A stretch of 64,000 nucleotides of DNA, taken from Prevotella sp. GTDB lineage: Bacteria; Bacteroidota; Bacteroidia; Bacteroidales; Bacteroidaceae. Position 1 is the stretch's first letter; each line of letters begins with the position of its first letter. The stretch is taken from assembly GCA_017651265.1 (NCBI GenBank), contig JAGCDO010000059.1, positions 41,249 through 105,248 of the forward strand, written 5' to 3'. This document shows, piece by piece, positions 6,194 through 45,757 of this stretch. Made by a program: the position numbers and the translations under genes. The notes beneath the pieces are model-generated. The model saw nothing but the letters and a program-made list of their open reading frames with translations. It made no database searches and had not been told where the DNA came from.

Positions 6194-6274
6194 TTCCCAT
6201 GCTGGGAATAAAATGTTCCCATGCTGGGAATAAGTTGTTCCCACGTTGGGAATAAAGTGTTCCCATGTTGGGAA
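6194..6274 (+). repeat. 22-bp array B of four palindromes in a 5' leader
   Basis: Four copies of a 15-base palindrome TTCCCA-NNN-TGGGAA begin at 6194, 6216, 6238 and 6260, an exact 22-base step. The centres read TGC, TGC, CGT, TGT and the linkers are AT-rich. In RNA each makes a 6-bp hairpin; in DNA they place four dyad sites on one helix face. Confidence 0.9.
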
Positions 6275-6302
6275 TAAATGGAAACTCGTAAAGAAAGATA
6301 TA

Positions 6303-26377: not shown

Positions 26378-28606
26378 TTAATCAGCAATCGTAAAATCAA
26401 GCTGTCGTTTTTCGATATTCGCTCTGGCTACCTTAATACGAATGGGGTCGCCTAACATGTATTTGTTATGACGGCGGCGGCCTACCAATTGGTAGTTCCG
26501 CTCATCAAAGTCGTAGTAGTCATCATCGAGGTCGTGCAAAGGAATCATACCCTCGCAATGGTTCTCATCGATTTCCGCATAGATGCCGAAGGCGGTGATA
26601 CCGCTGATATGAGCATCGAACTCTTCGCCGATGAATTCCGACATAAACTCCACCATCTTATATTTAATGGAGTCGCGTTCTGCATTCTGTGCAATCTGCT
26701 CCATGTCACTGCTGTGCTCGCAGAGCTCCTCATAATGGTCGCGGTTAGCACTTCGTCCTCCTTCCTGATAGCGGGTAAGCAAACGGTGAACCATCGTGTC
26801 AGGATAACGACGTATAGGAGAAGTGAAATGTGTATAGTAATCAAAGGCCAGTCCGTAGTGCCCGATATTGAACACGCTGTACTTTGCCTTCATCATGGCC
26901 CTCAGAGCCACACTCTCAATCACATTCTGTTCCCGTTTACCGTTCACATCGTCCATCAGCTTGTTCAGACTCTTCGAGATATCCTCTTTAGAGCCTGTGG
27001 TCTTCACCTTATAGCCGAAATGAGTGATGAACTCACGCAGTCGTTCCAGCTTGGTGGGATCCGGCTGGTCGTGTATTCGGTAGGGTAGTGTCTTGGCTTT
27101 CTCGCCTTTATTCACCTTACCTATTGACTCTGCCACCTGACGGTTGGCCAAGAGCATGAACTCCTCGATGAGCTTGTTAGCATCTTTCGACTTCTTGAAA
27201 TAAGCGCGTGTGGGCTTACCGTTCTCATCTACATCGAAGTGCAGCTCCTCTCGGTCGAACTTCACCGATCCGTTCTTGAAACGTTTCTTGCGCAACTCTT
27301 TGGCGAGTGCATCCAAAGTAATCAATTCTTTAGCGTATTCACCCTCATAGGTCTTGCGGGCAGGAGCAGGTTCGCCTGTTCCATCTTTCACGCCATTCTT
27401 CTCCAAGATCTCCTGAACCTCCTCGTAGGCAAAGCGGCGGTTACTCTTGATGACCGTATGAGCCAAGTGCCAATCCTTGATGTTCGCCTCGCCGTCGAGA
27501 ACGAAGATTACACTATAGCACAACTTCTCCTCATCAGGGCGCAAGGAACAGATAAAGTTACACAGACGTTCAGGCAACATCGGAATGGTGCGGTCAACGA
27601 GATACACACTGGTAGCCCTCTTCTGTGCTTCCTTGTCGATAACGGAGCCTTCCTTGACGTAGTGGGAGACATCAGCGATATGAACACCTACCTCCCACAG
27701 TTTCGGGGGTGCGGAGGTGCGGGGGTGCGGGGGTACGAGATTACCTTTGTACTCCCGTATAGACAGCGCATCATCAAAGTCCTTGGCATCCTTGGGGTCG
27801 ATGGTAAAGGTGGTAACATCACGGAAGTCCTCTCTTCGGGCAATCTCCTGCTCAGTGATGCCTGGATCGATTCTATTGGCCGCCTCCTCCACGTTCTTCG
27901 GGTACTTATACGGCAGTCCGTATTGAGCAAGAATAGCATGCATCTCAGCATTGTTCTCGCCAATCTTTCCCAATACGTCAATCACTTCGCCCACAATGTT
28001 CTTCGACTCCTTCGAAGGCCATTGTGTAATCTTTACCACCGCCTTATCATCAGTCTTACCCCCCTTGAGTTTCTTCTTGGGGATGAAGATATCGTGAACG
28101 AACAAGTTCCCATCGGGAATCAGGAAGGCGAAATCGCGCTCCACCTGCAGTCTTCCAACCACCTGGTCATGCGCCCTGCGAATAATCTCTGTGACCATAG
28201 CCTCTTTGATATGCTTCTCACGTCGTGCCATCATCGTAACCTTCACACGGTCGCCATTGAGTGCAAACATCGAGTTACGTTCTGCGATGAACACAGGCTT
28301 ATCACTTCCATCGGCAAGGAACGAGTTCTTTCCGTTGGCCTTACGGATGAAAATACCTTCGGCCACCTGTCCTCTTAAGTTCAGTCGGTAGCTATGCTCA
28401 GAGGGCTTACTTAAGAAATCGTCCCAGCTCATATCCTCGAGGATGTCCATGGCAAGCATCTTCGAGGGATGGTTGTCAAGGTGCAGGGTCTTGAAGATCT
28501 GCTTGATGGTGTATGTTTCGTTAGGGTTCTGCTGGAATAAGGTCTGGAGCATTTCGCTCAGCTTATTCTTGGTGAGGCGTTTGCCTTTGTTCTTACCTTT
28601 TGCCAT
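26378..28606 (-). CDS. rnr: Ribonuclease R with a repeat-derived peptide insert
   Basis: A 742-residue 3'-5' exoribonuclease of the RNase II/R family. It has a helix-turn-helix N-terminus, two cold-shock domains (about 60-230), the RNB catalytic domain (about 260-600) and an S1 domain (ITAFGIYAEIDENHCEGMI). The active-site Asp cluster is in TIDPKDAKDFDDALS and the later YTHFTSPIRRYPD is the usual RNB end. Between GNL and KLWEVGVHIADVSHYV, residues about 290-301 read VPPHPRTSAPP, encoded by a G-rich tandem repeat; RNase R normally has only a short loop there. The frame opens back to 28645, but the MAKGKNKGKR start at 28606 follows a promoter box at 28635-28642. Processes structured RNA and rRNA fragments. 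Confidence 0.95.
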   Translation of the reverse strand: MAKGKNKGKRLTKNKLSEMLQTLFQQNPNETYTIKQIFKTLHLDNHPSKMLAMDILEDMSWDDFLSKPSEHSYRLNLRGQVAEGIFIRKANGKNSFLADGSDKPVFIAERNSMFALNGDRVKVTMMARREKHIKEAMVTEIIRRAHDQVVGRLQVERDFAFLIPDGNLFVHDIFIPKKKLKGGKTDDKAVVKITQWPSKESKNIVGEVIDVLGKIGENNAEMHAILAQYGLPYKYPKNVEEAANRIDPGITEQEIARREDFRDVTTFTIDPKDAKDFDDALSIREYKGNLVPPHPRTSAPPKLWEVGVHIADVSHYVKEGSVIDKEAQKRATSVYLVDRTIPMLPERLCNFICSLRPDEEKLCYSVIFVLDGEANIKDWHLAHTVIKSNRRFAYEEVQEILEKNGVKDGTGEPAPARKTYEGEYAKELITLDALAKELRKKRFKNGSVKFDREELHFDVDENGKPTRAYFKKSKDANKLIEEFMLLANRQVAESIGKVNKGEKAKTLPYRIHDQPDPTKLERLREFITHFGYKVKTTGSKEDISKSLNKLMDDVNGKREQNVIESVALRAMMKAKYSVFNIGHYGLAFDYYTHFTSPIRRYPDTMVHRLLTRYQEGGRSANRDHYEELCEHSSDMEQIAQNAERDSIKYKMVEFMSEFIGEEFDAHISGITAFGIYAEIDENHCEGMIPLHDLDDDYYDFDERNYQLVGRRRHNKYMLGDPIRIKVARANIEKRQLDFTIAD
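27704..27737 (-). repeat. G-rich tandem repeat inside rnr
   Basis: Units of GGGGGTGCG/GGAGGTGCG on the plus strand, about four copies of 8-9 bases, make the codons for PPHPRTSAPP in RNase R. The insert keeps the frame. Confidence 0.8.
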
Positions 28607-28720: not shown

Positions 28721-29746
28721 ATGGACAGGATACTGATTACAGGCGCCTCTGGATTCATCGGTAGCTTTATCGTGGAAGAGGCATTGAAACGCAACATGGA
28801 AGTATGGGCAGCCGTCAGGAGAAGCAGTTCTCGCGAATGGCTGCAGGATGAACGTATCCATTTCATTGAGCTGAATCTTTCTTCTGAGGACGATTTGAAG
28901 AAACAGCTTCAAGATCATGTCTTCGATTATGTAGTGCATGCCGCTGGTGTTACGAAATGTCTTCGTAAAGAGCAATTCTTTAAGGTGAACACCGAGGGAA
29001 CAAAACATCTGGTGATCGCCTTGCTCGCTTTGCAGATGCCCTTAAAGAAGTTCATCTACCTGAGTAGTCTGAGTATCTTCGGAGCCATTCGTGAACAACA
29101 GCCCTACGAGGCCATCCGTGAAACTGATACGCCGCAGCCTAACACGGAATATGGCAAGAGTAAGTTAGCCGCAGAAGCAATCCTCAAGGGTTGCAGTAAG
29201 CCCCTCCCTATGGAGGGGTTGGGGGTGGCTCTCCCTTACGTCATCTTGCGCCCCACAGGTGTTTATGGCCCTCGCGAAAAAGACTATTTCCTCATGGTGA
29301 AGAGTATCCAGTCGCATTCGGATTTCTCCGTAGGTTTCAAACGTCAAGACATCACCTTTGTTTATGTCAAAGATGTGGTGCAGGCCGTCTTTTTAGCCAT
29401 GGAGCGCGGTAAGAGCGGCAGGTGTTATTTCCTGAGCGACGGACAGGTGTATCAGTCGGCTACGTTCAGTAATCTGCTTATCCGCGAACTCGGCAACCCC
29501 TGGTGCCTACGCATCAAAGCCCCCATCTGGTTACTGCGCATTGTTACCTTCTTTGGCGAGCAGGTGGGTAGGATAACAGGAAAGATATCCGCGCTGAACA
29601 ACGATAAGTATCATATCCTGAAGCAGCGCAACTGGCGTTGTGATATTCAGCCGGCAATCGATGAACTGGGCTATCAGCCGGAATACCAGCTGGAGCGTGG
29701 GGTAAAAGAAACGGTTGCGTGGTATAAGGAGCAAGGGTGGATTTAG
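28721..29746 (+). CDS. NAD-dependent epimerase/dehydratase with a repeat-derived insert
   Basis: A 341-residue extended short-chain dehydrogenase. NAD is bound through GASGFIGSF at residues 8-16; the catalytic Ser and Tyr-Lys lie in YLSSLSIFG and YGKSK, and ILRPTGVYGP is the conserved substrate-side motif. Related proteins act on nucleotide sugars, sterol-like compounds or dihydroflavonols; the substrate is not readable. Residues about 160-171 (SKPLPMEGLGVA), between the helix after YGKSK and LPYVILRP, come from a palindromic CCCCTCC...GGAGGGG repeat and look like an insertion of a dozen residues. The PAP2 gene follows after an AATTGA-rich repeat. Confidence 0.85.
   Translation: MDRILITGASGFIGSFIVEEALKRNMEVWAAVRRSSSREWLQDERIHFIELNLSSEDDLKKQLQDHVFDYVVHAAGVTKCLRKEQFFKVNTEGTKHLVIALLALQMPLKKFIYLSSLSIFGAIREQQPYEAIRETDTPQPNTEYGKSKLAAEAILKGCSKPLPMEGLGVALPYVILRPTGVYGPREKDYFLMVKSIQSHSDFSVGFKRQDITFVYVKDVVQAVFLAMERGKSGRCYFLSDGQVYQSATFSNLLIRELGNPWCLRIKAPIWLLRIVTFFGEQVGRITGKISALNNDKYHILKQRNWRCDIQPAIDELGYQPEYQLERGVKETVAWYKEQGWI
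29199..29230 (+). repeat. Palindromic repeat inserted in the epimerase gene
   Basis: CCCCTCC-CTAT-GGAGGGG followed by TTGGGGGTGG. It is palindromic, very G/C-rich against its surroundings, and keeps the reading frame. Confidence 0.8.
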
Positions 29747-29749
29747 TGG

Positions 29750-29796
29750 AATTGAGAATTGAAAATTGACAATTGACAATTGAGAATTGGAATTGA
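29750..29796 (+). repeat. AATTGA-type degenerate tandem repeat at a gene start
   Basis: Repeated GAATTGAAAATTGACAATTG-type units fill the space between the epimerase stop and the PAP2 reading frame and supply the TTG start of the latter. A sister tract is at 40190-40222. Confidence 0.8.
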
Positions 29797-33614: not shown

Positions 33615-33632
33615 TCGCCATTTTCTTACATT

Positions 33633-33819
33633 CTTACATTCCAACTTTCTTACATTAAGGTGGTTTTGAAGTGCGGAAATCAATGGCCTATATTATATAT
33701 AAATATAGAATAATAATAATTATAATCACTTCAATTTGACGTTCCAATTTTGACAATCTGCAACCGCAAAAAGTGAGAAGGTGCTTAATGTAAGATTGTT
33801 GGAAAGTTGGATTGTAAGA
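33633..33819. repeat. Nested inverted repeat before miaB
   Basis: Outer arms: CTTACATTCCAACTTTC (33633-) with TTACATTAAG to 33659 is inverse to 33784-33819, which has a few extra bases in the middle. Inner arms TTGAAGTG (33666-33673) and CACTTCAA (33727-33734). The centre is AT-rich. It is the size and shape of a small non-autonomous mobile element. Confidence 0.55.
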
Positions 33820-34065: not shown

Positions 34066-35472
34066 GTGAAGAAACTCTATATAGAAACATATGGGTGCCA
34101 GATGAACGTGGCCGACTCAGAGGTTGTTGCCTCTGTGATGCAGATGGCCAATTATGAGGTCACCACAGATATTCAGGATGCAGATGCGGTATTCTTGAAC
34201 ACCTGTTCGGTAAGAGACAATGCCGAACAGAAAATCTACCACCGCTTGGAAGAGCTGAATGCGATGCGCAATAAGCGTGCCAGCGACTCTTCAAATGTCA
34301 CTCCACACTCCTCACTCCACACTCCTCGATTGATCATAGGTGTTCTCGGCTGTATGGCCGAACGGGTAAAGGATGATCTGATCAAGAACCACCATGTGGA
34401 TCTGGTGGCAGGACCGGATGCTTATCTTTCTTTGCCCGACCTGATTGCGCAGTGCGAACTGGGGCAGAAAGCCATCAATATCGAACTCTCTAATACCGAA
34501 ACCTACCGTGATATTCTTCCGCAACGACTGCATACTGCCAAGGTGGGCGGCTTCGTGAGTATCATGCGCGGCTGTAATAACTTCTGTCATTACTGCATCG
34601 TGCCCTATACCCGAGGAAGAGAACGCTCAAGAGATGTGGAGAGTATTCTGCGTGAGGTTCAAGACTTGCAACAGCGGGGATTCAAAGAGGTGACTCTGTT
34701 GGGACAGAATGTGAACAGCTATGGATTATCTCCCAGTGGAAAACCGCTGCCCGACGGAACGAGCTTTGCTGAACTGCTGAGAAAGGTGGCAAAGGCTGTT
34801 CCTTCGATGCGCGTGCGTTTCACGACATCCAATCCCGAGGATATGAGCGAGGACATCCTCCACGCCATTGCCGAGGAACCGAATCTCTGTCGGCATATCC
34901 ACTTCCCAGCTCAAAGCGGAAGTAATCATATCCTGAAACTGATGAACCGTAAATATACCCGTGAGGACTATCTGAGTAAGGTGGAGGCCATCAGAAGGAT
35001 TATCCCTGATTGCGGTCTTTCAACAGATATCTTTGTGGGCTACTGCGATGAAACGGAAGAGGACTTCCAGCAGACGCTCTCGTTGGTGCGTGAAGTGCAG
35101 TTCGATTCGGCGTTTATGTTCAAATACTCGGAACGACCGGGTACCTATGCTGCCAAGCACTTGGCGGATAATGTGCCCGAGGAGGAGAAGATTCGCCGAC
35201 TGAACGAGCTGATCACGCTGCAGACACAGATCTCAGCCGACCGCAACAAGCTGGATGTGGGAAAGGTGTTCGACGTGTTGGTGGAAGGTTTCAGTAAGCG
35301 CTCTCGTGAGCAGCTGATGGGACGCAACGAGCAGAACAAGGCCGTGGTGTTCAACAAAGACGGGCATCATATCGGTGAAACGGTTCGGGTAAAGATTACA
35401 GAGAGCTCCAGCGCCACGCTGAAAGGAACGATTATCGAGGAAGGAGGAAGGAGGAAGGACGAAGGAGAATAG
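34066..35472 (+). CDS. miaB: tRNA-2-methylthio-N6-isopentenyladenosine synthase
   Basis: A 468-residue radical-SAM methylthiotransferase that adds the methylthio group to i6A37 of tRNAs. The UPF0004 domain binds a cluster via C11, C47 and C96 (YGCQMN, NTCSVRDNA, GCMAER); the radical-SAM cluster uses C170, C174 and C177 (RGCNNFCHYC). A TRAM domain ends the protein. The start is a GTG at 34066; a TTG upstream lies in the promoter. Two oddities: residues 74-87 (DSSNVTPHSSLHTP) are encoded by a perfect 14-bp tandem duplication at 34299-34326 in a region where relatives have a short loop, and the last dozen residues (EEGGRRKDEGE) are read from one arm of a G/A-rich inverted-repeat element. First gene of the envelope cluster. 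Confidence 0.95.
   Translation: MKKLYIETYGCQMNVADSEVVASVMQMANYEVTTDIQDADAVFLNTCSVRDNAEQKIYHRLEELNAMRNKRASDSSNVTPHSSLHTPRLIIGVLGCMAERVKDDLIKNHHVDLVAGPDAYLSLPDLIAQCELGQKAINIELSNTETYRDILPQRLHTAKVGGFVSIMRGCNNFCHYCIVPYTRGRERSRDVESILREVQDLQQRGFKEVTLLGQNVNSYGLSPSGKPLPDGTSFAELLRKVAKAVPSMRVRFTTSNPEDMSEDILHAIAEEPNLCRHIHFPAQSGSNHILKLMNRKYTREDYLSKVEAIRRIIPDCGLSTDIFVGYCDETEEDFQQTLSLVREVQFDSAFMFKYSERPGTYAAKHLADNVPEEEKIRRLNELITLQTQISADRNKLDVGKVFDVLVEGFSKRSREQLMGRNEQNKAVVFNKDGHHIGETVRVKITESSSATLKGTIIEEGGRRKDEGE
34299..34326 (+). repeat. Perfect 14-bp tandem duplication inside miaB
   Basis: CACTCCACACTCCT occurs twice head to tail (34299-34312, 34313-34326). The insert adds codons for TPHSSLHTP between the UPF0004 segments. 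Confidence 0.85.
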
Positions 35473-35555
35473 TACAGAGATACAAATAAGGAGTATAGAG
35501 GTCTTGTTGCATGATGCAAATCTCCTTCCTCTTTCCTCCATCCTCCTTCCTCGAT
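35434..35555 (-). repeat. Inverted-repeat element E, diverged copy at the miaB end
   Basis: Left arm 35434-35470 (TCGAGGAAGGAGGAAGG...) and right arm 35519-35555 (ATCTCCTTCCTC...CCTCGAT) surround about 48 bases. Read on the minus strand the spacer matches part of the 45603-45748 copy (TTATTT-GTATCTC-GTA). The left arm codes the MiaB tail. Confidence 0.8.
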
Positions 35556-35570
35556 ATAACATAATAAAGC

Positions 35571-37406
35571 ATGAAAGAATTCTTAAAGGTATTAAAACGC
35601 TTCATACCGCCCTATAGGAAATACTTGTTCCTAACGGTGCTCTTCAATATCCTCAGTGCGGTATTGAATATCTTCTCATTCATGACCATCATCCCCTTAC
35701 TCAACATCCTCTTCCAGACGGAATCGGGTATGCGACAGACGGAATGGATAGAGTGGGGCGAGATGAACTTGAAGAACTGCACCGAGGTGGTAAGCAACAA
35801 TGCGAACTGTCTGGTGCAGGATATGGTATTGAACTTAGGTGCTACCACGTCGTTGCTGGTTATCGGACTCTTCCTGGCGTTCATGACCTTCCTGAAGACG
35901 GGTGCTTACTTCCTATCGTCGGCTACCATCATCCCCATTAGAACAGGTGTGGTGCGTGATATCCGCAACCAGCTATACCAGAAAATCACATCGCTGCCTT
36001 TAGGTTTCTTCAGCGAGGAACGTAAGGGTGACATCATTGCTCGTATGAGTGGTGATGTTCAGGAAATAGAAACATCCATCATGGCGAGTCTTGATATGTT
36101 GTTCAAGAATCCCATCCTGATCATCGCCTATTTCACCACATTGCTCATCGTTTCATGGAAACTCACGCTCTTCACCATTATCTTTGCACCGCTTTTCGGT
36201 TGGTTCATGGGCTTTGTGGGCAGGAAACTGAAGGCCAAGAGCATCAGGGCACAGTCGTTGTGGAGCGACACGATGAGTCAGGTGGAGGAGACCTTAGGCG
36301 GCTTGCGTATCATCAAGGCTTTCAATGCCGAGGAGAAGATGAACCGCAGGTTCGACCATGTGAACTCTTCGTATCGTAACGATATCATGCGCGTGAATAT
36401 CCGTCAGCAGATGGCGCACCCCATGAGTGAGTTCTTAGGAACGGTAATGATTGTTATCGTGCTCTGGTTCGGTGGTATCCAGGTATTGAACAATGCCTCC
36501 ATCAGCGGACCAACCTTTATCTACTACCTCGTCATTCTCTATAGCATCATCAATCCGCTGAAAGAGTTCTCCAAGGCGAGCTATAACATCCCCAAGGGAT
36601 TGGCTTCTATGGAGCGTGTGGATAAGATTCTGCTGGCCGAGAACAATATCAAGGAACCCGAGAATCCCAAGCATATCGATAGTTTCGAACATCAGATAGA
36701 GTTCCGCAACGTGTCGTTCAAATATGCCGACCAATGGGTGCTGCGCGACATCAATCTGGTTATTGAGAAAGGTAAGACCATCGCCTTGGTGGGACAGAGT
36801 GGCGGCGGAAAATCTACATTGGTGGATCTGATTCCGCGCTATTACGATGTGCAGGAAGGTGAGGTGCTGATAGATGGTATCAACGTGAAGGACTTGGGTA
36901 TTCACGACCTGCGTAAGTTGATTGGTAATGTGAATCAGGAGGCCATCCTCTTTAACGACACCTTCTTCAATAATATCTCCTTCGGCGTGGAAAATGCTAC
37001 ACGAGAGGAGGTGGAGCATGCGGCAAAGATTGCCAATGCCCACCAGTTCATCATGGCAGCCGAACAGGGGTATGATACGAATATCGGTGACCGTGGCGAC
37101 CGCCTCAGTGGCGGTCAGCGCCAACGTGTAAGTATTGCTCGTGCCATCCTGAAAAACCCGCCGATATTGATTCTTGATGAGGCTACATCGGCTTTGGATA
37201 CGGAAAGTGAACGACTGGTGCAGGATGCGCTTGAACGACTGATGAAGACGCGTACCACTGTGGCCATTGCGCACCGTTTGAGTACCATTAAGAACTCGGA
37301 TGAGATCTGCGTGCTCCATGAGGGACGAATCGTTGAACGTGGCTCGCATGAGCAGTTGCTCAACAGCGACGGCTATTACAAGAAACTCCATGAGATGCAA
37401 TCGTAG
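35571..37406 (+). CDS. ABC exporter of the MsbA/lipid-exporter type
   Basis: A 611-residue fused ABC exporter: six transmembrane helices in residues 1-330, then an ATPase domain. Walker A is GQSGGGKST at about 407-415, the signature LSGGQRQR at about 511, and Walker B ILILDEATSALD at about 531-542. A long periplasmic loop after the first helix (QTESGMRQTEWIEWGEMNLK) is unusual for MsbA and typical of Bacteroidota relatives. It may flip lipid A core or another glycolipid across the inner membrane. The next genes encode an acyltransferase and a Kdo-kinase-like protein, which supports a lipopolysaccharide role. The gene starts 15 bases after element E. Confidence 0.9.
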   Translation: MKEFLKVLKRFIPPYRKYLFLTVLFNILSAVLNIFSFMTIIPLLNILFQTESGMRQTEWIEWGEMNLKNCTEVVSNNANCLVQDMVLNLGATTSLLVIGLFLAFMTFLKTGAYFLSSATIIPIRTGVVRDIRNQLYQKITSLPLGFFSEERKGDIIARMSGDVQEIETSIMASLDMLFKNPILIIAYFTTLLIVSWKLTLFTIIFAPLFGWFMGFVGRKLKAKSIRAQSLWSDTMSQVEETLGGLRIIKAFNAEEKMNRRFDHVNSSYRNDIMRVNIRQQMAHPMSEFLGTVMIVIVLWFGGIQVLNNASISGPTFIYYLVILYSIINPLKEFSKASYNIPKGLASMERVDKILLAENNIKEPENPKHIDSFEHQIEFRNVSFKYADQWVLRDINLVIEKGKTIALVGQSGGGKSTLVDLIPRYYDVQEGEVLIDGINVKDLGIHDLRKLIGNVNQEAILFNDTFFNNISFGVENATREEVEHAAKIANAHQFIMAAEQGYDTNIGDRGDRLSGGQRQRVSIARAILKNPPILILDEATSALDTESERLVQDALERLMKTRTTVAIAHRLSTIKNSDEICVLHEGRIVERGSHEQLLNSDGYYKKLHEMQS

Positions 37407-37409
37407 GAA

Positions 37410-38381
37410 ATGAAGGGGGGGATAGGATATAAGTTGCTATATGGTTGTGCCTATGCGGTATCGTTGTTGCCGTATAGCATCTTGTATGTGGTCTCTGATT
37501 TCTTCTACCTGTTGGTGTATCATGTTGTGGGCTATCGTAAGAAGGTGGTGAGAAAGAATCTCTCTTCGTCGTTCCCCGAAAAGGATAAGCAGGAACTGAA
37601 GAAGATTGAGAAGGCTTTCTATCACTGGCTGTGCGACTACTTCGTTGAGACGTTGAAACTACTGAGTGTATCGGATGAGACACTGCTGAAACATATTGAG
37701 TTTCGCAATGCCGAAGAGATAGAGCAGTGCTTCGACAAAGGACAGTCGTGCGCGGCCTTCCTGGGTCATTACTGCAACTGGGAACTGCTGTCCACAACAG
37801 CTTTGGCCATGACGCGCTGGAAGGAAACCACCAACGAACATCAGTCGGCTGTAATGGGCCTGATCTACCATCCGCTCCGGAACAAAGCGTTCGACCGTCT
37901 GTTCATCCAGTTACGACAGAAGAAACAAGGTACTTGCATTCCCAAGAAGGAGATTCTTCGCTATCTGGCTAAGTACAGAAAGGAGCAGCGGATGTCGCTG
38001 TTCGGCTATATTGCCGATCAGAATCCGAAGTGGGAGAATATCCATCTGTGGCTACCGTTCCTGAATCATGACACTCCTGTGTTTACAGGCGCAGAGAGAA
38101 TCGTGCGGAAAATGAACAATGCAGTGTTCTATGTCGATATGGAACGGCCAGAACGAGGGAAGTATATCTGTACTTTCAAGCGGATGAGTAATGAGCCAGG
38201 ACAACTGGAGGAATATGCGCTGACGCGACAGTTCTTCCAGATGCTCGAGGAAACGATTCGTCGGGCACCACAATACTACCTCTGGACGCATAACCGATGG
38301 AAGCGGACGCATGAGGAGTTTGATAGGAGGAAGGACGAAGGAGGAGGGAGGAAGGATTCCCTCCGGGAAGGACGAAGTTGA
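37410..38381 (+). CDS. LpxL/HtrB-family lipid A acyltransferase with repeat-derived tail
   Basis: A 323-residue late acyltransferase that adds a secondary fatty acid to lipid A. One N-terminal membrane helix (LLYGCAYAVSLLPYSILYVV) is followed by the acyltransferase fold with the catalytic dyad H120 and E125 in GHYCNWE, and the conserved GYIADQNPK. The last 18 residues (RRKDEGGGRKDSLREGRS) are encoded by element-E-like G/A repeat DNA (38325-38376) and are not part of the family fold. The gene starts three bases after the exporter stop and ends base-to-base with the kinase start (TGA then ATG). Confidence 0.92.
   Translation: MKGGIGYKLLYGCAYAVSLLPYSILYVVSDFFYLLVYHVVGYRKKVVRKNLSSSFPEKDKQELKKIEKAFYHWLCDYFVETLKLLSVSDETLLKHIEFRNAEEIEQCFDKGQSCAAFLGHYCNWELLSTTALAMTRWKETTNEHQSAVMGLIYHPLRNKAFDRLFIQLRQKKQGTCIPKKEILRYLAKYRKEQRMSLFGYIADQNPKWENIHLWLPFLNHDTPVFTGAERIVRKMNNAVFYVDMERPERGKYICTFKRMSNEPGQLEEYALTRQFFQMLEETIRRAPQYYLWTHNRWKRTHEEFDRRKDEGGGRKDSLREGRS
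38325..38376 (+). repeat. Element-E-type G/A repeat at the acyltransferase 3' end
   Basis: GGAGGAAGGACGAAGGAGG and a second GGAAGGACGAAG around TTCCCTCCGGGAA. It encodes the last 18 residues of the upstream protein. Confidence 0.75.
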
Positions 38382-39137
38382 ATGAGTAGAAAACTGATTC
38401 TTAGGGAGAAATACAAGGACCTCAAGGAGTTTGTGGCACAGATTCCCAGAAGGTTTGAAGACGAGGGGCGGACCGTTTATCAAGGTCGGAACCTCATCAA
38501 GGTGTTCGATGGACCTAACGACATGCTGATGAACGTAAAACGCTATCGTATTCCTAAGGGCATCAACCGCCTTGTCTATTCCCTCGGCATCCGCAAGGCC
38601 AAGGGTTTGCGGGGCTATCAGTATCCGCGGGTATTATTGGAAAAGGGGATAGATACCCCAGAGCCTATTGCCTATATCGAGGATAGGAAAGGTGGACTCA
38701 TCACCTATTCTTATCTGATTACCGTGCAAAGTAAGCTGCAACACACCTTGTATGAGTTCGGGAATGCCCCGAAAGAGCAATGGCTGCCGATGGTGGAGCC
38801 CCTTGCTGCCTTTGCAGCCAAGATCCATGAGCAAAACCTCATGCACCGCGATTTCTCTCCAGGCAATGTGCTGTGGGATGTGATTGACGGTACTTATCAG
38901 TTCTCAGTGGTGGATATCAACCGTATGTATTTCGGTGAGGTGGACATGAAGCAGGGATGTGAGAACTTCGCACGTCTCTGGGGACCGAAGGAGTTCTTCT
39001 GTGAGTTGATACGCGCCTATGCCAAAAACCGCCATTTCAACGAGGATGAGGCTATATGCATAGCCCTGTCTGCCAGGGAACGCTTTTGGACAAGATACCG
39101 GAAAAGGCACGAGGTGATGTTTGATCTGGAACTGTAA
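38382..39137 (+). CDS. Kdo/lipopolysaccharide kinase-family protein
   Basis: A 251-residue protein-kinase-like fold of the WaaP/KdkA group. The catalytic loop HRDFSPGNVLW has H155 and D157 and the metal-binding DINRMYFG follows about 20 residues later, as DFG would in other kinases. Such enzymes phosphorylate Kdo or heptose in the inner core of lipopolysaccharide, in the cytoplasm at the membrane. Its start is immediately after the acyltransferase stop, so the two are coupled. The Bacteroidota core has phosphorylated Kdo, so Kdo is a plausible substrate (known for the family, not shown here). Confidence 0.82.
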   Translation: MSRKLILREKYKDLKEFVAQIPRRFEDEGRTVYQGRNLIKVFDGPNDMLMNVKRYRIPKGINRLVYSLGIRKAKGLRGYQYPRVLLEKGIDTPEPIAYIEDRKGGLITYSYLITVQSKLQHTLYEFGNAPKEQWLPMVEPLAAFAAKIHEQNLMHRDFSPGNVLWDVIDGTYQFSVVDINRMYFGEVDMKQGCENFARLWGPKEFFCELIRAYAKNRHFNEDEAICIALSARERFWTRYRKRHEVMFDLEL

Positions 39138-39156
39138 CGATGATTTGTATTGAGCG

Positions 39157-40191
39157 ATGATGAACCGACTGTGTTTTATTTCAAGGAACTACCGTGGCAC
39201 GAGTAGTGCGGGTAACAAGGCAAAGACCGATTACGAACAGATTCTGCGTGATTTGGGGGCAACGAATCTCGGCTTAGAGACAACGTTCTATACCAGTCAG
39301 GTGGTTTCGTTTGTGCGTAACCTGATGGGCATCATCCATATGTCCTCCAAGGTGCAGAAGGGAGATATCATCATCCTTCAGTACCCCGTCAAGAAATATT
39401 TCAGTCTGATTTGCCGCATTGCCCATCGTCGTGGAGCGAAAACCATTGCACTCATCCACGATCTAGGTTGCATGCGCAGGAAGAAGCTTACCGAACAGCA
39501 GGAGATTAACCGACTGATGCATGCGGATGGTGTGATAGCCACCAATGCGGTCATGATGCAATGGCTCAAGGAGAAAGGATATACGAAGACGTTAGATTAC
39601 TTAGGGTTGCATGACTACCTCTCGGATTCTGTTTCACGGCCGCCTGTTCAGCACTCGCCCTTAAAGGTTGTCTATGCCGGAACGCTTGCCCTGCGCAAGA
39701 ATGCCTTCTTGATGGATATGGCCAAGCAGGTGGGTAATTACGAGTTGGTGATCTATGGAATGCACAAGGGCTTACCGCGCCTTCAGACCCGCGGTCTTGT
39801 GAAGGTGAACCCCTTCCTCTCTGCCGATACGTTCATCCGTGAGGTGGAAGGTGACTTCGGTTTGGTGTGGGATGGTGATTCCATAGACACATGCAGCGGT
39901 CATTTCGGGGAGTATCTTCGTTGGAACACGCCCCATAAGGTGTCGTTCTATATACGTGCCGGATTGCCCATGATCGTGTGGCGACAGTCGGCTGTTGCCC
40001 CCATTGTGCAGCAGGAAGGAATCGGTTTCTGCATTGATTCGATAGAAGAGCTGAACACCCTTCTTCCTACCATCACTCCTGAACAGTTATCCGAGATGCG
40101 CCAGCGGGTGGTAAACGTGAGTTCACGAATGGCCCAAGGCTGCTATCTCAAAGAGGCGGTCGGAAGAATTCTTCAAACAATGAGAACCTAA
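39157..40191 (+). CDS. Glycosyltransferase (GT-B, galactofuranosyltransferase-like)
   Basis: A 344-residue glycosyltransferase-like protein. Residues 1-160 resemble the N-terminal Rossmann half of beta-1,6-galactofuranosyltransferases (FISRNYRGTSSAGNKAKTDY, GDIIILQYPVKKYF, IALIHDLGCMRR), and from about 170 there is a second Rossmann half with LKVVYAGTLALRKN and the donor-side FGLVWDGDSIDTCSG. The sugar is not readable. It closes the operon of exporter, acyltransferase and kinase genes, which makes an outer-membrane glycolipid target likely. The stop at 40189-40191 abuts an AATTGA-type repeat shared with the convergent gene. Confidence 0.8.
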   Translation: MMNRLCFISRNYRGTSSAGNKAKTDYEQILRDLGATNLGLETTFYTSQVVSFVRNLMGIIHMSSKVQKGDIIILQYPVKKYFSLICRIAHRRGAKTIALIHDLGCMRRKKLTEQQEINRLMHADGVIATNAVMMQWLKEKGYTKTLDYLGLHDYLSDSVSRPPVQHSPLKVVYAGTLALRKNAFLMDMAKQVGNYELVIYGMHKGLPRLQTRGLVKVNPFLSADTFIREVEGDFGLVWDGDSIDTCSGHFGEYLRWNTPHKVSFYIRAGLPMIVWRQSAVAPIVQQEGIGFCIDSIEELNTLLPTITPEQLSEMRQRVVNVSSRMAQGCYLKEAVGRILQTMRT

Positions 40192-40222
40192 TTCTCCATT
40201 TTCAATTCTCCATTCTCAATTG
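40190..40222 (-). repeat. AATTGA-type repeat between convergent genes
   Basis: TTCTCCATTTTCAATTCTCC-type units; on the minus strand they encode the last residues (QLRMEN) and stop of the LtaS-like protein. Confidence 0.75.
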
Positions 40223-42130
40223 TCTAAATAAGAACTCCGCTGTCTGTTCCATGGCAAACACATAACGGCGCAGCGAAGCAAAAGGCTCTTCGTTGTGCGT
40301 CTGGATGAGCTGTCCGTCCTGTCCGATATCATAGCAGAAACTCTTTTTCATCTGCGGATGATAGAGGAAACAGCGGGTGGAATCCCTTGCCACAATCTGG
40401 TTATCGGCAGAATAGAACACCATCTGTCGCTGCTGGTGTAACAGATCCGTACCGAAGCCGTTGTAGTCGTAGTCGATACCTAACATATTTAATAAGGTAG
40501 GCATCACATCTACCTGCATACCCAGATGTGTATATTCCTGCGATGGGATGCCTGCGCCGAAGATCATCAGTGGGATATGGTTATACGACTGCGGTAGCTC
40601 GGAGTCGGTCGTCCCTACAAGCTTACCATGATCAGCCAGCACAACAAACACCGTATTGTCGTACCAACTCTCCTTCTTTGCCTTCTTAAGGAAATCCCCG
40701 ATACACCAGTCGGCATACTCCACAATCTGTGTTTCAGGCTCTTTCGACGAAGATTTGAACCAATTGGGTATGATATACGGCGGATGGTTACTGATGGTGA
40801 GCAGGGTGGCCATGAACGGCTGCTGCTGTTTTGCTATGTTGTTCAGTTTCCCTAAGGCAAAGTCAAAGAGGAAATGATCCGACACCCCGAAGCTGTTCAC
40901 GATTTCCTCCTTGGGATAGTCCTCCTGTGCATAGATCTCGTCGTAGCCATTGGTGCGGAAGAACGCGTTCATGTTATCATACTGCGCCTCATGCGTCATG
41001 AAGAACAGGTTATGCCAGCCGTTTTGTTTCAGCACCGTGGGCAATCCGTCACGTTTAGGTGTAACCGTTCCCTTCATCAGGTTCCTTTTCATCAGGGCGG
41101 GGAACGAATACAGCGTGGCGGTCATGCCATGGTTGGTATGAATGCCTGCCGAGTAGAAGTTACTGAAGTAGAGCGATTGGGTCTTCAGACTGTCGAGTAC
41201 GGGTGTATAACCCTTTCCTAAGAGTGCCGACGACATCGATTCCATGAGGATGATCACGATGTTCGGCTTTGTGACGGTCAATATCTTCTCCTCTTCACGG
41301 TCACCGTTCCTCATCTGTCGGAACAGGATTTTAGTAGAGTCAGCAGGTCCTGTGATATTCAAAGAATTGCGCACATAGGTAATAGCCTCGTCATACGGCA
41401 TCAGCATCAGCTCCGCATTCTCTTTCCGCATGTCATCCAGCGCACTGGTAAGCAGGTTAAAGGCAGGATTGATGCCCAGCTGATTCAGGAACGGGTCGTT
41501 GCAGTAGTACGCCTGACTGATCTTGATGGGGTTGTAACCCATTCTGCCACGAATGCCGAACAGACAGAGTGCCACTAAAGCCACTGTTATCAGTAGCGAG
41601 GGTAGCCAGTGTTTCCTGCTCACTGTCGTAAGGGTGGTTCTTTCCATGATTCTCCACACCAACCAGCAGAACACTGCCGTCAGCACGAAATACAGGGCGA
41701 TATACACCCACCACGTCTTCTCCTGGAACACCATCCCCGCTGTTGTTCCCGTATAGCCGAACCACTCGAAGATCGACGAGTTGATGTTCTTGAAGAAATA
41801 GGCAAAGTAAGGGATATTTGCGGCCGAGGCCATCATCAGCAGTGCATACAGCACACAGAACCACACAGCCACAGTCCGCAGTATCCACCGTCGGCAGTAG
41901 CCAAAGCAGGCTGCCAATAACACCAGTGCCAGCGGAACAATCATCACATAGCAGCCCATCACATTGTCGAACCACAATCCCCTGATAAAGGCAGGGGCAA
42001 CGGCGGTTGTCTGGTCAGTAATCATGCCCCGCAGCACGAAGAACTCCATGCAGCGGTAGAAGGAGAGGAACAGTAAGCCCAGCACATGAATGCCCAGTAA
42101 ACTCCCAAGTATGCGTAAAAACTGTTTCAA
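40202..42130 (-). CDS. LtaS-like membrane phosphotransferase (sulfatase fold), first paralog
   Basis: A 642-residue protein with five N-terminal membrane helices and a periplasmic alkaline-phosphatase/sulfatase domain from about residue 270. The metal site starts at NIVIILMESMSS (Glu), the likely nucleophile Thr is in AGIHTNHGMTA, and VFVVLADHGKL and YNHIPLMIFGAG supply other ligands. Gram-negative relatives transfer phosphoglycerol or phosphoethanolamine to glycans or lipids; lipoteichoic acid is not expected. No ATG precedes the first helix: an in-frame stop lies upstream, so the start is a TTG (42128-42130) next to an ATCTTT-type repeat. The C-terminus is also repeat-encoded. A related protein is at 48006-49940. 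Confidence 0.82.
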   Translation of the reverse strand: MKQFLRILGSLLGIHVLGLLFLSFYRCMEFFVLRGMITDQTTAVAPAFIRGLWFDNVMGCYVMIVPLALVLLAACFGYCRRWILRTVAVWFCVLYALLMMASAANIPYFAYFFKNINSSIFEWFGYTGTTAGMVFQEKTWWVYIALYFVLTAVFCWLVWRIMERTTLTTVSRKHWLPSLLITVALVALCLFGIRGRMGYNPIKISQAYYCNDPFLNQLGINPAFNLLTSALDDMRKENAELMLMPYDEAITYVRNSLNITGPADSTKILFRQMRNGDREEEKILTVTKPNIVIILMESMSSALLGKGYTPVLDSLKTQSLYFSNFYSAGIHTNHGMTATLYSFPALMKRNLMKGTVTPKRDGLPTVLKQNGWHNLFFMTHEAQYDNMNAFFRTNGYDEIYAQEDYPKEEIVNSFGVSDHFLFDFALGKLNNIAKQQQPFMATLLTISNHPPYIIPNWFKSSSKEPETQIVEYADWCIGDFLKKAKKESWYDNTVFVVLADHGKLVGTTDSELPQSYNHIPLMIFGAGIPSQEYTHLGMQVDVMPTLLNMLGIDYDYNGFGTDLLHQQRQMVFYSADNQIVARDSTRCFLYHPQMKKSFCYDIGQDGQLIQTHNEEPFASLRRYVFAMEQTAEFLFRQLRMEN

Positions 42131-42187
42131 TCTTTTATCTTTAATCTTTTATGTTTAATCTTTCATCTCTCATCTCTCATCTCTCAT
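42129..42187. repeat. ATCTTT/ATCTCTC degenerate tandem repeat
   Basis: Units of ATCTTTTATCTTTAATC then CATCTCT x4. It lies between the LtaS-like start and the TerC stop and encodes the last few residues of TerC. Confidence 0.8.
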
Positions 42188-43214
42188 CTTTATTATTCTC
42201 CCTCCTTGTCGCAATGGTCGATATAACCATGGCGAGCAGTAGTGTTCCAAAGATGATGCATAAGGAAAGACCAGTTGAGATCTCCACATGCGGCATGGTA
42301 ACAGGAATGCCCATCCATGCCAGCACCGCATTCACATATTCGTTCATGGCCAACAGCATCTTCACTCCCACGAAGATCAGGATGATGCCCAATCCATATT
42401 TCAGATACTGGAAATACTTGGCGATGGCAGCTAAGGCGAAGTAGAGTGCTCGTAAGCCGAGAATAGCGAAGATATTACTGGTGAGCAGGATAAACGGATC
42501 GCGCGACACGCTGAACACCGCAGGGATGGAATCCACAGCAAAGGCCACATCCGAGGTCTCTATGGTGATCAAGGCAATCAGCAGTGGTGTCACCATCAGC
42601 TTTCCGTTCTCCCTTACCGTAAAGCGGTCGCCATGCAGTTGCATGGTTACGGGAAACAGTCGGTTGCACCATCTCACAATCACGTTCTTAGACAGATCAT
42701 TAGTCTGCTCCTCCTGATGTGTGAACATCTTTGCTCCGGTATAGAGTAGGAAGAGTCCGAAGATGCCCAGCACCCATTCAAAGCGTTGCACCACGGCCAC
42801 GCCCGCAAAGATGAAGATGCTGCGCAATACTAAGGCCCCGAAGATTCCCCAGAAGAGCACCTCGTGCTGGTATTTGCGTTCAATGCCGAAGAAAGAGAAC
42901 AGCATCAGGAACACGAAGAGGTTATCCATCGATAGCGACTTCTCGATGAGGTAGGCCGACAGGAACTCCATGGCTTTCTCATGACTGTCCACGGGATAGA
43001 ACAGATAGATGCCTGCGCAGAAGATGAGTGAAACGATAATCCATACCGCCGTCATCTTCAGGGCTTCGCCCACGTTCACCTCATGCTGTCCTTTCCGCCC
43101 GAACATCTTCAGGTCGGCCACCAGCATCAGGATGACCAATATATAGAAAAGCACCCATCCCCATGTGGGAATCACTTCCGAGTGGAATGCACTTGTTGCT
43201 AATAGGTTTATCAT
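42177..43214 (-). CDS. TerC/Alx-family integral membrane protein
   Basis: A 345-residue protein with eight to nine helices. The family's paired acidic residues are visible in IEKSLSMDNLFVFLMLFS and ETSDVAFAVDSIPAVFS. Members export manganese or other metals, or assist tellurite resistance and metalation of exported proteins; Mn export (Alx/MntP-like) is the best guess. The last residues (NNKDER) come from the ATCTCT repeat. The next gene upstream is divergent-oriented by a repeat element; the TerC start at 43214 is a normal ATG. Confidence 0.93.
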   Translation of the reverse strand: MINLLATSAFHSEVIPTWGWVLFYILVILMLVADLKMFGRKGQHEVNVGEALKMTAVWIIVSLIFCAGIYLFYPVDSHEKAMEFLSAYLIEKSLSMDNLFVFLMLFSFFGIERKYQHEVLFWGIFGALVLRSIFIFAGVAVVQRFEWVLGIFGLFLLYTGAKMFTHQEEQTNDLSKNVIVRWCNRLFPVTMQLHGDRFTVRENGKLMVTPLLIALITIETSDVAFAVDSIPAVFSVSRDPFILLTSNIFAILGLRALYFALAAIAKYFQYLKYGLGIILIFVGVKMLLAMNEYVNAVLAWMGIPVTMPHVEISTGLSLCIIFGTLLLAMVISTIATRRENNKDER

Positions 43215-43230
43215 CTTATTCTATTATTAT

Positions 43231-43376
43231 CGAGGAAGGAGGAAGGAGGAACGAGGAAGGAGAATACCTTTGTGTACAATATTCATTCCTTCGATTCCTA
43301 TTTCCTATTCTTCCACTTTTTTATCTTGTGTATAAGTTCAAATCTCCTTCCTCCTTCGTCCTTCCTCCTTCCTCGA
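43231..43376 (+). repeat. Element E, full 146-bp copy between terC and dus
   Basis: Left arm 43231-43264 (CGAGGAAGGAGGAAGGAGG...) and inverse right arm 43341-43376 (AATCTCCTTCC...CCTCG) enclose a 76-base spacer that begins ACCTTTGTGTACA. A copy of exactly the same length is at 45603-45748. The right arm and 19 bases of spacer encode the C-terminus of Dus. TACCTTTG at 43265-43272 would be a promoter -7 box on the plus strand. Confidence 0.88.
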
Positions 43377-44403
43377 AATACTTCTCACGGCAGTGAGAAA
43401 GTATTCCCTCCAGTTCCTCCAGCGTATTTGCCCGCAGCATGGCGATGCGCGTTTGGCGGAAGTCGGGAATGCCTTTGAAGATAGGTGTGGCAGCCAGGTG
43501 CCGACGGGTATGCAGGATACCCCGATACTCGTTCTCGCTAATATCCTTACCCTTAATGGCATGGATGCGTTCGATGTTGATATGCAGCTGCTCAATCAGG
43601 ATATCCAGCTTCTCAGAGTTCGTCAGTGGATGAGGAATTCCTTCCTCCTTCGTCCTTCCTCCTTCCTCCAGATAATCCCTGATTTCCTGGAATATCCACG
43701 GTCTTCCGAAGGTGGCACGTCCAATCATCACCGCATCCACCCCATAGCGTTCAAACGCCTGTTTGGCCTGCTCGGGGGTGGTGATATCACCATTGCCGAT
43801 GATAGGGATATGGATGCGCGGGTTCGCTTTCACCTCACCTATCAAGGTCCAGTCGGCCTCGCCTGTGTACATCTGCGAACGCGTTCTGCCATGAATCGTC
43901 AGTGCCTGTATGCCGCAGTCCTGCAGCTGTTCAGCCAGCGTGGTAATCACCAGTTGCTCCTTGTTCCACCCCAGTCGTGTCTTTACCGTTACGGGCGTCT
44001 TCACCGCCTTCACCACCTCGCGTGTGATGTCCAGCAGCAGCGGAATGTTTTGCAGCATGCCAGCCCCAGCGCCCTTGCCCGCTACCTTCTTCACCGGGCA
44101 TCCGAAGTTCAGGTCGATCACGTCCGGGTGTGCCTGTTCTTCCACAATCTGCGCCGCCTCCACCATCTGTGGTACATAACGTCCATAGATCTGTATGCCC
44201 ACAGGTCGTTCCGCATCATCGATAGTCAGCTTACTAATGGTGCTCTTCACCGATCGCACCAACGCCTCGGCGCTCACGAACTCCGTATATACCATAGCTG
44301 CGCCGAAGCGTTTGCATAGCTGTCGGAATCCGATATCCGTCACATCCTCCATCGGTGCGAGGAACAGCGGTCTGTCTCCAAACTGTATATTACCAATCTT
44401 CAT
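43321..44403 (-). CDS. dus: tRNA-dihydrouridine synthase with repeat-derived insert and tail
   Basis: A 360-residue flavoenzyme of the DusB type that reduces uridines in tRNA D-loops. The TIM barrel starts RPLFLAPMEDVTDIGFRQL; the catalytic Cys is in LNFGCPVKKVAGKGAG, and TIHGRTRSQMYTG and IIGNGDI hold the FMN site. Two stretches are foreign to the family: residues about 245-255 (EEGGRTKEEGI) from a G/A-rich element-E arm at 43639-43669, and residues about 343-360 (EEGGRTKEEGDLNLYTR), encoded by the right arm and spacer of the adjoining element. Both use the same reading frame of the repeat. A core of barrel plus C-terminal helical domain is otherwise intact. Confidence 0.94.
   Translation of the reverse strand: MKIGNIQFGDRPLFLAPMEDVTDIGFRQLCKRFGAAMVYTEFVSAEALVRSVKSTISKLTIDDAERPVGIQIYGRYVPQMVEAAQIVEEQAHPDVIDLNFGCPVKKVAGKGAGAGMLQNIPLLLDITREVVKAVKTPVTVKTRLGWNKEQLVITTLAEQLQDCGIQALTIHGRTRSQMYTGEADWTLIGEVKANPRIHIPIIGNGDITTPEQAKQAFERYGVDAVMIGRATFGRPWIFQEIRDYLEEGGRTKEEGIPHPLTNSEKLDILIEQLHINIERIHAIKGKDISENEYRGILHTRRHLAATPIFKGIPDFRQTRIAMLRANTLEELEGILSHCREKYFEEGGRTKEEGDLNLYTR
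43639..43669 (-). repeat. Element-E arm inserted in the dus coding region
   Basis: CCTTCCTCCTTCGTCCTTCC repeated on the plus strand (G/A-rich on the minus strand), 31 bases, coding GGRTKEEG-type residues in Dus. Confidence 0.85.
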
Positions 44404-44410
44404 AACACAA

Positions 44411-44457
44411 TCTTAGCATCATATCTCCTTCGTCCTTTCTCCTTCGTCCTTCCTCGA
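44411..44457. repeat. Half copy of element E between dus and dprA
   Basis: TCTTAGCATCATATCTCCTT and further CTCCTTCGTCCTTCCTCG match the right half (spacer end plus right arm) of the 45603-45748 copy; no left arm. Confidence 0.75.
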
Positions 44458-45596: not shown

Positions 45597-45602
45597 TGTT
45601 TT

Positions 45603-45748
45603 CGAGGAAGGAGGAAGGAGGAACGAGGAAGGAGAATACCTTTGTGTACAGTATTCATTCTCTCGATTCCTATCTCCTATTCTTCCACTATTATTTCTTG
45701 TATCTCAGTATCATATCTCCTTCGTCCCTCCTCCTTCCTCCTTCCTCG
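45603..45748 (+). repeat. Element E, full 146-bp copy upstream of dprA
   Basis: Left arm 45603-45636 and inverse right arm 45713-45748 enclose a 76-base spacer. The first half of the spacer (ACCTTTGTGTACA..TATTCATTC..TCGATTCCTAT) is nearly the same as in the 43231-43376 copy; the second half is less alike. Equal length (146) and spacer conservation mark it as a discrete element. Confidence 0.88.
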
Positions 45749-45757
45749 ATATGCGCG

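Follow-up and report, generated by a model that had tools for sequence, protein, structure and literature searches.

The window analysed here, 64,000 nucleotides of a Prevotella genome (G000:C58:41249-105248; the genome, G000, comprises 3.16 Mb in 69 contigs and is 94% complete), carries genes for MiaB, Dus, RNase R and an epimerase, all named by Pfam matches; its dprA, thioesterase and acyltransferase genes are presumed from our reading of the sequence alone. An earlier note on this DNA had claimed that short repeats run in frame into these four conserved housekeeping proteins. We indeed found such an insert in all four, and the phenomenon proved wider than noted. Most of the repeats are tandem arrays with units of 7 (or 8) bases, a unit length that corrects the earlier note, and a part of them form the inverted arms of a short element with a central core. 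Arms of the GGAAGGA family are called E. The features in and around these genes are as follows.

27704..27737, minus strand: single CCCCCGCA-family octamer arm in the RNase R gene, within the part for the RNB domain, residues 290-302
29197..29230, plus strand: palindromic repeat CCCCTCCCTATGGAGGGGTTGGGGGTGGC inside the epimerase, residues 160-170, a separate repeat family
34299..34330, plus strand: single ACTCCAC-family heptamer arm, in frame within miaB; adds residues 74-88 compared with solved MiaB
35433..35468, plus strand: left E arm of a full element, coding for the C-terminal residues of MiaB; stop codon right after it
35469..35520, plus strand: core of this element downstream of miaB, AATAGTACAGAGATAC...
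35521..35556, plus strand: right E arm of this miaB element, inverted
43228..43263, plus strand: outer E arm of a full element downstream of dus
43264..43342, plus strand: core of the dus element, sharing 87% identity with the core at 45635 along 75 nt
43343..43378, minus strand: E arm of that element; encodes the Dus C-terminus (EEGGRTKEEG...)
43639..43669, minus strand: single E arm inside dus, in frame, residues 245-255
44424..44457, minus strand: single E arm upstream of dus
45600..45751, plus strand: complete arm-core-arm E element between two genes; the orthologous intergenic region of G006 lacks it

In miaB, CACTCCACACTCCT is present twice in tandem, and this perfect 14-bp duplication (34299-34326), from which the earlier note had derived the insert, keeps the frame. 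Alignment to solved MiaB (7mjv) places query residues 74-88 in a clean gap between two conserved blocks; here and below, inserts were placed in loops by sequence alignment to solved homologues, not by coordinates. Among 81 MiaB sequences, this loop measures 12-13 residues in 42 and at least 20 in 33. MiaB shares 87-92% identity with the proteins of four uncultured Prevotella (L215, L216, L217 and L224), two of them recorded from ruminant hosts. The loop is short in L215 (92% identical), L217, L233 and L271, L216 has an octamer array at the insert site, and the insert of L224 (91% identical) combines an arm from the family seen in G000 with a CCCCTCC palindrome. The comparison with orthologs proposed in the earlier note thus revealed a repeat-type insert and short loops in several relatives, but the insert is shared with one of them, L224, so it is not private to this genome. 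The E arm that encodes the MiaB C-terminus (35433-35468) had not been mentioned in that note and is an addition to it.

The Dus residues formerly attributed to an E arm (about 245-255) are encoded by the arm at 43639-43669, which is present in none of the 28 usable relatives; the alignment to 6ei9 ends at residue 249, inside the insert. Upstream of dus, the orthologous intergenic region of G006 holds arms of a CAAGAAG family. The RNase R insert is likewise real: it falls at an alignment gap against 8cdu, and its octamer array is absent from all 29 relatives. Octamer arms also stand elsewhere in the genome (L192 and L200), and the insert, which starts with GGTAATCTCGTACC and ends with CCCCCGAAACT, resembles by eye the right arms of these octamer elements together with the core end of L132. 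The same RNase R loop holds unrelated long inserts in L063 and L084 and a short one in L072. The epimerase insert, also borne out, is a CCCCTCCCTATGGAGGGG palindrome of another family and not a heptamer array; none of 29 relatives has one, and a close copy lies at L130:5671. Inserts private to this genome, with matching repeats elsewhere in it, were therefore found for three of the four proteins. As a separate observation, the MiaB loops of L025 and L223 and the Dus loop of L035 are occupied by other palindromic repeats, of GTAGGGGCACCCC... and CCCTCCC...GGGAGGG types.

Arrays are held by 31 open reading frames (ORFs), from which 15 short or antisense ones were left out; the other 16, together with the epimerase, were scanned against Pfam. 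The repeat lies within the Pfam match in 10 of these 17 proteins (MiaB, Dus, RNase R, the epimerase, a sulfatase, a GH3 enzyme, RadA, GDP-mannose 4,6-dehydratase, an RluA-like synthase and SufS), at its edge in TrmB, and outside it in WbqC, a TonB receptor, two M6 peptidases, an AMP-binding protein and a ResB-like protein. In-gene copies are mostly single arms. Like those of MiaB and RNase R, the inserts of SufS (8d8s) and RadA (5lkm) fall at alignment gaps; residues 125-164 of the RluA-like protein are unaligned with 2i82, and the gap of GDP-mannose dehydratase against 1db3 spans just 3 residues. Comparison with congeners covered six of the ten Pfam-embedded cases, namely the four proteins above, the RluA-like synthase and SufS. 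We regard the RluA-like gene as the strongest single case: a whole 123-bp arm-core-arm element (L133:15341-15463) sits in frame within its pseudouridine-synthase domain, between ENGKEAITDYY and LRPQTG. This element is present in none of the 24 relatives retrieved, and L311 and L314 carry other heptamer arrays there (by eye). The SufS insert is (AAAGTTC)n, a unit seen at this place in none of 24 relatives; the loop is filled by CTCACCC-type heptamers in G006 (L334) and by CAACTGT-type heptamers in G018 (L335), and CAACACC-type heptamers lie slightly beyond it in L342. A second full E element was also observed in the long RluA-like ORF, upstream of the domain (L133 14820-14944).

Arrays were scored by lag match, at least 14 for the period spectrum and at least 11 for the census of arrays and pairs, with Markov-shuffled sequence as control. 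The own-genome sample comprised 355,607 bases, the window plus 15 stretches from contigs with E or other earlier matches, and is biased towards E because its stretches were chosen in this way. Period 7 clearly dominated with 82 arrays, followed by periods 14 (45), 22 (16), 9 (9) and 8 (2); periods 2-6 had none, and the shuffled sequence had none at any period. In 98,845 bases of G006, 10 arrays were found at period 7 and 0 at period 8, and the miaB neighbourhoods of 80 named records, 492 kb in all, yielded 28 at period 7, 25 at 14, 20 at 22 and 10 at 8. At least one array of score at least 11 was present in 28 of these 80 loci, and the miaB gene itself held a heptamer array of score at least 10 in 11 of the 80. 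The 47 arrays at these loci have 40 different units and share the peak at period 7; the units thus differ widely between species, and the period is common to them. Some families are widespread, GGTGAGA having matches in 16 of 40 genomes. Arrays of period 22 (16 in the own-genome sample, 20 at the 80 named loci) form a separate class, to which four tandem 22-nt units at 6194-6281 of the window (TTCCCANNNTGGGAATAAA...) also belong.

The census counted 94 arrays in the own-genome sample, 40 of which form 20 inverted pairs. Among 29 pairs of adjacent arrays within 250 nt, 20 were inverted, 2 direct and 7 unrelated, and those 20 have the properties of a miniature inverted-repeat transposable element (MITE), that is, terminal inverted repeats, a length of 50-1000 bp and no transposase inside. 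The elements measure 92-182 bp (one exception, 289 bp), their arms enclose a core of 35-120 nt (237 nt in one pair), and the predicted folds of four full elements contain long stems, with z from -7.6 to -12.0. Related ends, AATAGYACTGAGATAC ... GTATCTCAGTRCTATT, recur in many cores. This core-end motif had 42 matches in the own genome, at least one of which (L208) is an armless chance match, and 0 for the reversed control; G006 had 13 (control 3), four of them copies of a G006 variant, and the other 38 genomes had 1-12 each. The G024 matches were rejected as an unrelated repeat, with six near-identical copies containing TATGTCAGTAACATTCTC (C1, L177-L182).

Unexpectedly, homologous cores were found between arms of different families within one genome. 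We examined 28 own-genome cores, drawn from the biased sample and from loci fetched for the core motif. Half of them (14) were of one core type, c0, and this type was flanked by A/A arms in 8 elements, E/E in 2, and octamer/octamer, K/E, K/none and R/A in 1 each, the left arm of the R/A element mixing R and A units; the remaining 14 cores were all E/E. Over 56 nt, the c0 query has 95% identity with the A-armed cores at L196, L197 and L200 and 93% with the E-armed core at L199. The six cores of G006 had K/K arms in 2, R/R in 3 and R/K in 1. At L193 and L204, an arm is joined to only the final part of a core.

Dispersed copies were searched in 40 genomes as three units in a row with at most 2 mismatches (as stated for ATTAGGA); matches overlap within one array, so that arrays are overcounted, and the in-gene insert itself adds a few. 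ATTAGGA had 393 matches in G015, whose MiaB carries it, the next highest being 26 in G009, and none in 29 of the genomes. GGTGAGA had 165 in G033 and 106 in G018, both with a GGTGAGA insert in MiaB, and none in 24. GGAAGGA (E) had 247 in the own genome, the highest of the 40, followed by 104 in G022, and none in 32. The pattern controls were weak overall: reversed ATTAGGA gave 1 to 3 matches each in 5 genomes, reversed GGTGAGA matched in 9 of 40, most in G034 (83) with zero in G033 and G018, and the E pattern reads the same when reversed, which makes that control uninformative. The tested units are thus amplified in the carrying genomes, strongly so for the two families of other species, ATTAGGA and GGTGAGA, and this favours import over purely local slippage, to which we still leave some probability.

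The places where arrays reside were analysed in the MiaB, Dus, RNase R and epimerase sets (119 rows, Dus row L055 left out). Length-variable columns make up 10-24% of these four sets, and all 15 period-7 arrays (score at least 10) touch such a place, the 15 not being independent cases because several share a row. Period 8 contributed 4 arrays, and periods 4, 5, 10, 11 and 13 together 2. In the 80-record MiaB set, where 70% of columns were classed as variable, this test does not discriminate. Arrays that stand only where length varies would be the expected remnant of selection on random arrivals. The earlier note had named a contrary case, in which the loops of relatives would be filled by unrelated DNA, and this is partly true: loops vary in length genus-wide and many are filled in that way, but others carry other heptamer arrays. 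Its interpretation as repeat invasion is supported, and the phenomenon is spread over the genus and not peculiar to one strain.

Taken together, these data establish the dispersal of the repeats, the period-7 peak, the modular core-plus-arm anatomy with one core type bearing different arms, the in-frame residence within Pfam domains of ten proteins and the amplification of the tested units in carriers. We consider it probable that the repeats originate as copies from a pool present throughout the genome and persist where the reading frame and the loop can accommodate them. A Prevotella genome would contain a stock of scattered tandem arrays, of heptamers or sometimes octamers, whose families vary from one species to another. 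In G000, several G-rich families would serve as inverted arms around the short core of a small MITE-like element that is non-autonomous. Arms or entire elements would be copied to new sites, and those arriving in frame in a length-tolerant loop or at the C-terminus of a conserved protein would persist as peptide inserts. Such copies may move by insertion, through an enzyme acting in trans or through ectopic copying; the arms may lengthen by 7-base slippage and have probably been exchanged between elements, and the inserts are presumably tolerated rather than useful.

Several observations weigh against copying from a pool. The arms of one element are no more alike than the arms of different elements (E, 0.929 versus 0.930; A, 0.888 versus 0.865, with 847 of 5000 permutations as high), and hairpin copying as the cause of the arm match within an element is unsupported for the same reason. 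Perfect direct repeats of at least 3 bases, as expected of a target-site duplication, were found in 1 of 12 elements versus 4 of 132 mismatched pairs (14 elements were tried and 2 dropped for want of a clear outer end). The Y1 transposase, the sole enzyme family searched, had 0 matches in G000 at its 94% completeness, and a Y1_Tnp match (E <= 0.001) was present in 22 of the 40 genomes; for lack of this match in G000, the transposase associated with repetitive extragenic palindromes (REPs), RAYT, was rejected as the mover. Among 54 arrays left unpaired by the rule used, some of which lie in mixed or nested elements, 13 have the core-side junction motif and 15 the outer-end motif (9 have both), and 35 have neither as defined. 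The AAAGTTC, AATTGAG and AACTATG arrays, with no junction motif and no core, make up a second array class without an element, so that RadA, SufS and GDP-mannose dehydratase fall outside the element model. Moreover, GGTGAGA is abundant in G009 (107), G019 (103) and G035 (91), where MiaB has no GGTGAGA array, and all comparisons were between species, none between strains of one species.

Part of this evidence would suit ectopic copying, in which dispersed arms serve as templates for one another while DNA is replicated or repaired (template switching or gene conversion), with no transposase; we regard this as possible, if doubtful. There is no target-site duplication signal and no Y1 transposase match, the arms behave like a freely mixing pool, and mixed-arm elements occur in two genomes; however, since the sites of the cores are unlinked and their flanks unrelated, the first insertion would still need explaining. 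A local origin, in which a heptamer that arose by chance in a length-tolerant loop is expanded by polymerase slippage with no import, is unlikely. The perfect 14-bp duplication in MiaB and the length variation that loops show regardless would agree with it, as would the account that, of repeat units 5-11 nt long, those of 7 nt are the most frequent in the majority of bacterial genomes, together with the idea of polymerase-contact slippage (Mrazek 2007, as summarised in PMC4679880). Yet the three tested families are amplified in genomes with in-gene copies, the outer end of element arms is recognisable in the MiaB and Dus inserts, both ends of the RNase R insert look by eye like those of an entire octamer arm, and a whole arm-core-arm element lies inside the RluA-like gene.

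It is somewhat less likely still that a dedicated process writes or replaces tandem 7-mer (in one family 8-mer) arms from a few unit templates beside a fixed core; if true, this would mean template-directed repeat writing, with one element changing its arms wholesale and single in-gene arms as by-products, and the element would be no ordinary MITE. Retention of the inserts for their usefulness, for instance as regulatory hairpins in mRNA or as interaction peptides, seems very improbable: arrays do occur at the same loops in several species and full elements form strong hairpins, but sequence and peptide vary by species and most relatives have no insert. An artefact of assembly can hardly be credited, even though many of the compared genomes are metagenome-assembled, the own genome is in 69 contigs and 17 of 20 strain-named loci have no period-7 array. 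Arrays, counted by locus and not by gene, are present in HUN156, S. copri iA622, tf2-5 and the single-contig G016, and in-gene arrays preserve the frame and the flanking conserved blocks across many species.

Among known systems, the cyanobacterial short tandemly repeated repetitive (STRR) sequences are degenerate, dispersed tandem heptamers. Set beside them and the heptanucleotide long simple sequence repeats by description, the arrays here are likewise dispersed, degenerate heptamers with period 7 dominant; they differ in being partly the inverted arms of an element and in lying inside housekeeping-protein domains. REPs and REPINs, with RAYT, consist of inverted repeats and a spacer at high copy number; here, in contrast, G000 has no Y1_Tnp match and the arms are tandem arrays. 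Closest in effect, as far as the published description at hand allows, are the Rickettsia palindromic elements (RPEs), small dispersed palindromic elements of ~150 bp in ten families, with conserved peptides and in frame in unrelated genes (PMC10969869). This analogy, drawn in the earlier note, stands for residence in frame in protein genes (here 10 of the 17 scanned proteins, inside the Pfam match) but not for anatomy, the copies here being mostly single, heptamer-built arms of ~30 nt and one core type having several arm families. In taxonomic order and in the union of a MITE with tandem repeats, the closest described system is the Bacteroidales MITE BrickBuilt of Porphyromonas gingivalis, in which a 23-nt unit is repeated within the element, always intergenic, and whose account, in the portion at hand, names Prevotella only as weak matches (PMC4596501). 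Units of 7-8 nt form the arms here, by contrast, and arrays are also intragenic. The enterobacterial RU-1/2/3 are MITE-like and intragenic with open frames, as are the arrays here, but they are fixed units of 103-168 bp, and heptamer arms are unmentioned in the portion of their description at hand (PMC2759123). TAACTGA heptamer arrays have been described in Bacteroidetes (PMC4679880). In the portions of the RPE, BrickBuilt, RU and TAACTGA accounts at hand, neither varied heptamer arms per core nor recurrent inserts at the same housekeeping loops appear. Heptamer inserts in Prevotella proteins and different heptamer arms on one core are unreported among the open-access matches listed, which is weak evidence of absence.

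Further repeats were observed in the window.

29749..29789, plus strand: heptamer array without a core, AATTGAG family, intergenic
38325..38356, plus strand: E arm near the C-terminus of a 323-residue ORF that runs up to the start of the next gene (an acyltransferase by sequence reading)
42130..42189, minus strand: heptamer array without a core, AGAGATG/AAAGATT units

At 33624-33819, inverted 36-nt arms, 83% complementary and 124 nt apart, are built of octamers like TCTTACAT and belong to neither the E nor the A family. An Rfam scan of positions 20000-50000 gave zero matches at the gathering score.

These results point to a process, common to the genus, in which dispersed repeats supply loop peptides to housekeeping enzymes (MiaB, RNase R, Dus, SufS and the RluA-like synthase). 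Since different arrays stand at the same loops across species, insertion tolerance is open to study as a natural experiment. Varied arms on one core, together with the sharp 7-base period, are hard to explain by ordinary transposition or slippage, and the preference of bacterial tandem arrays for period 7, an old question, becomes testable.

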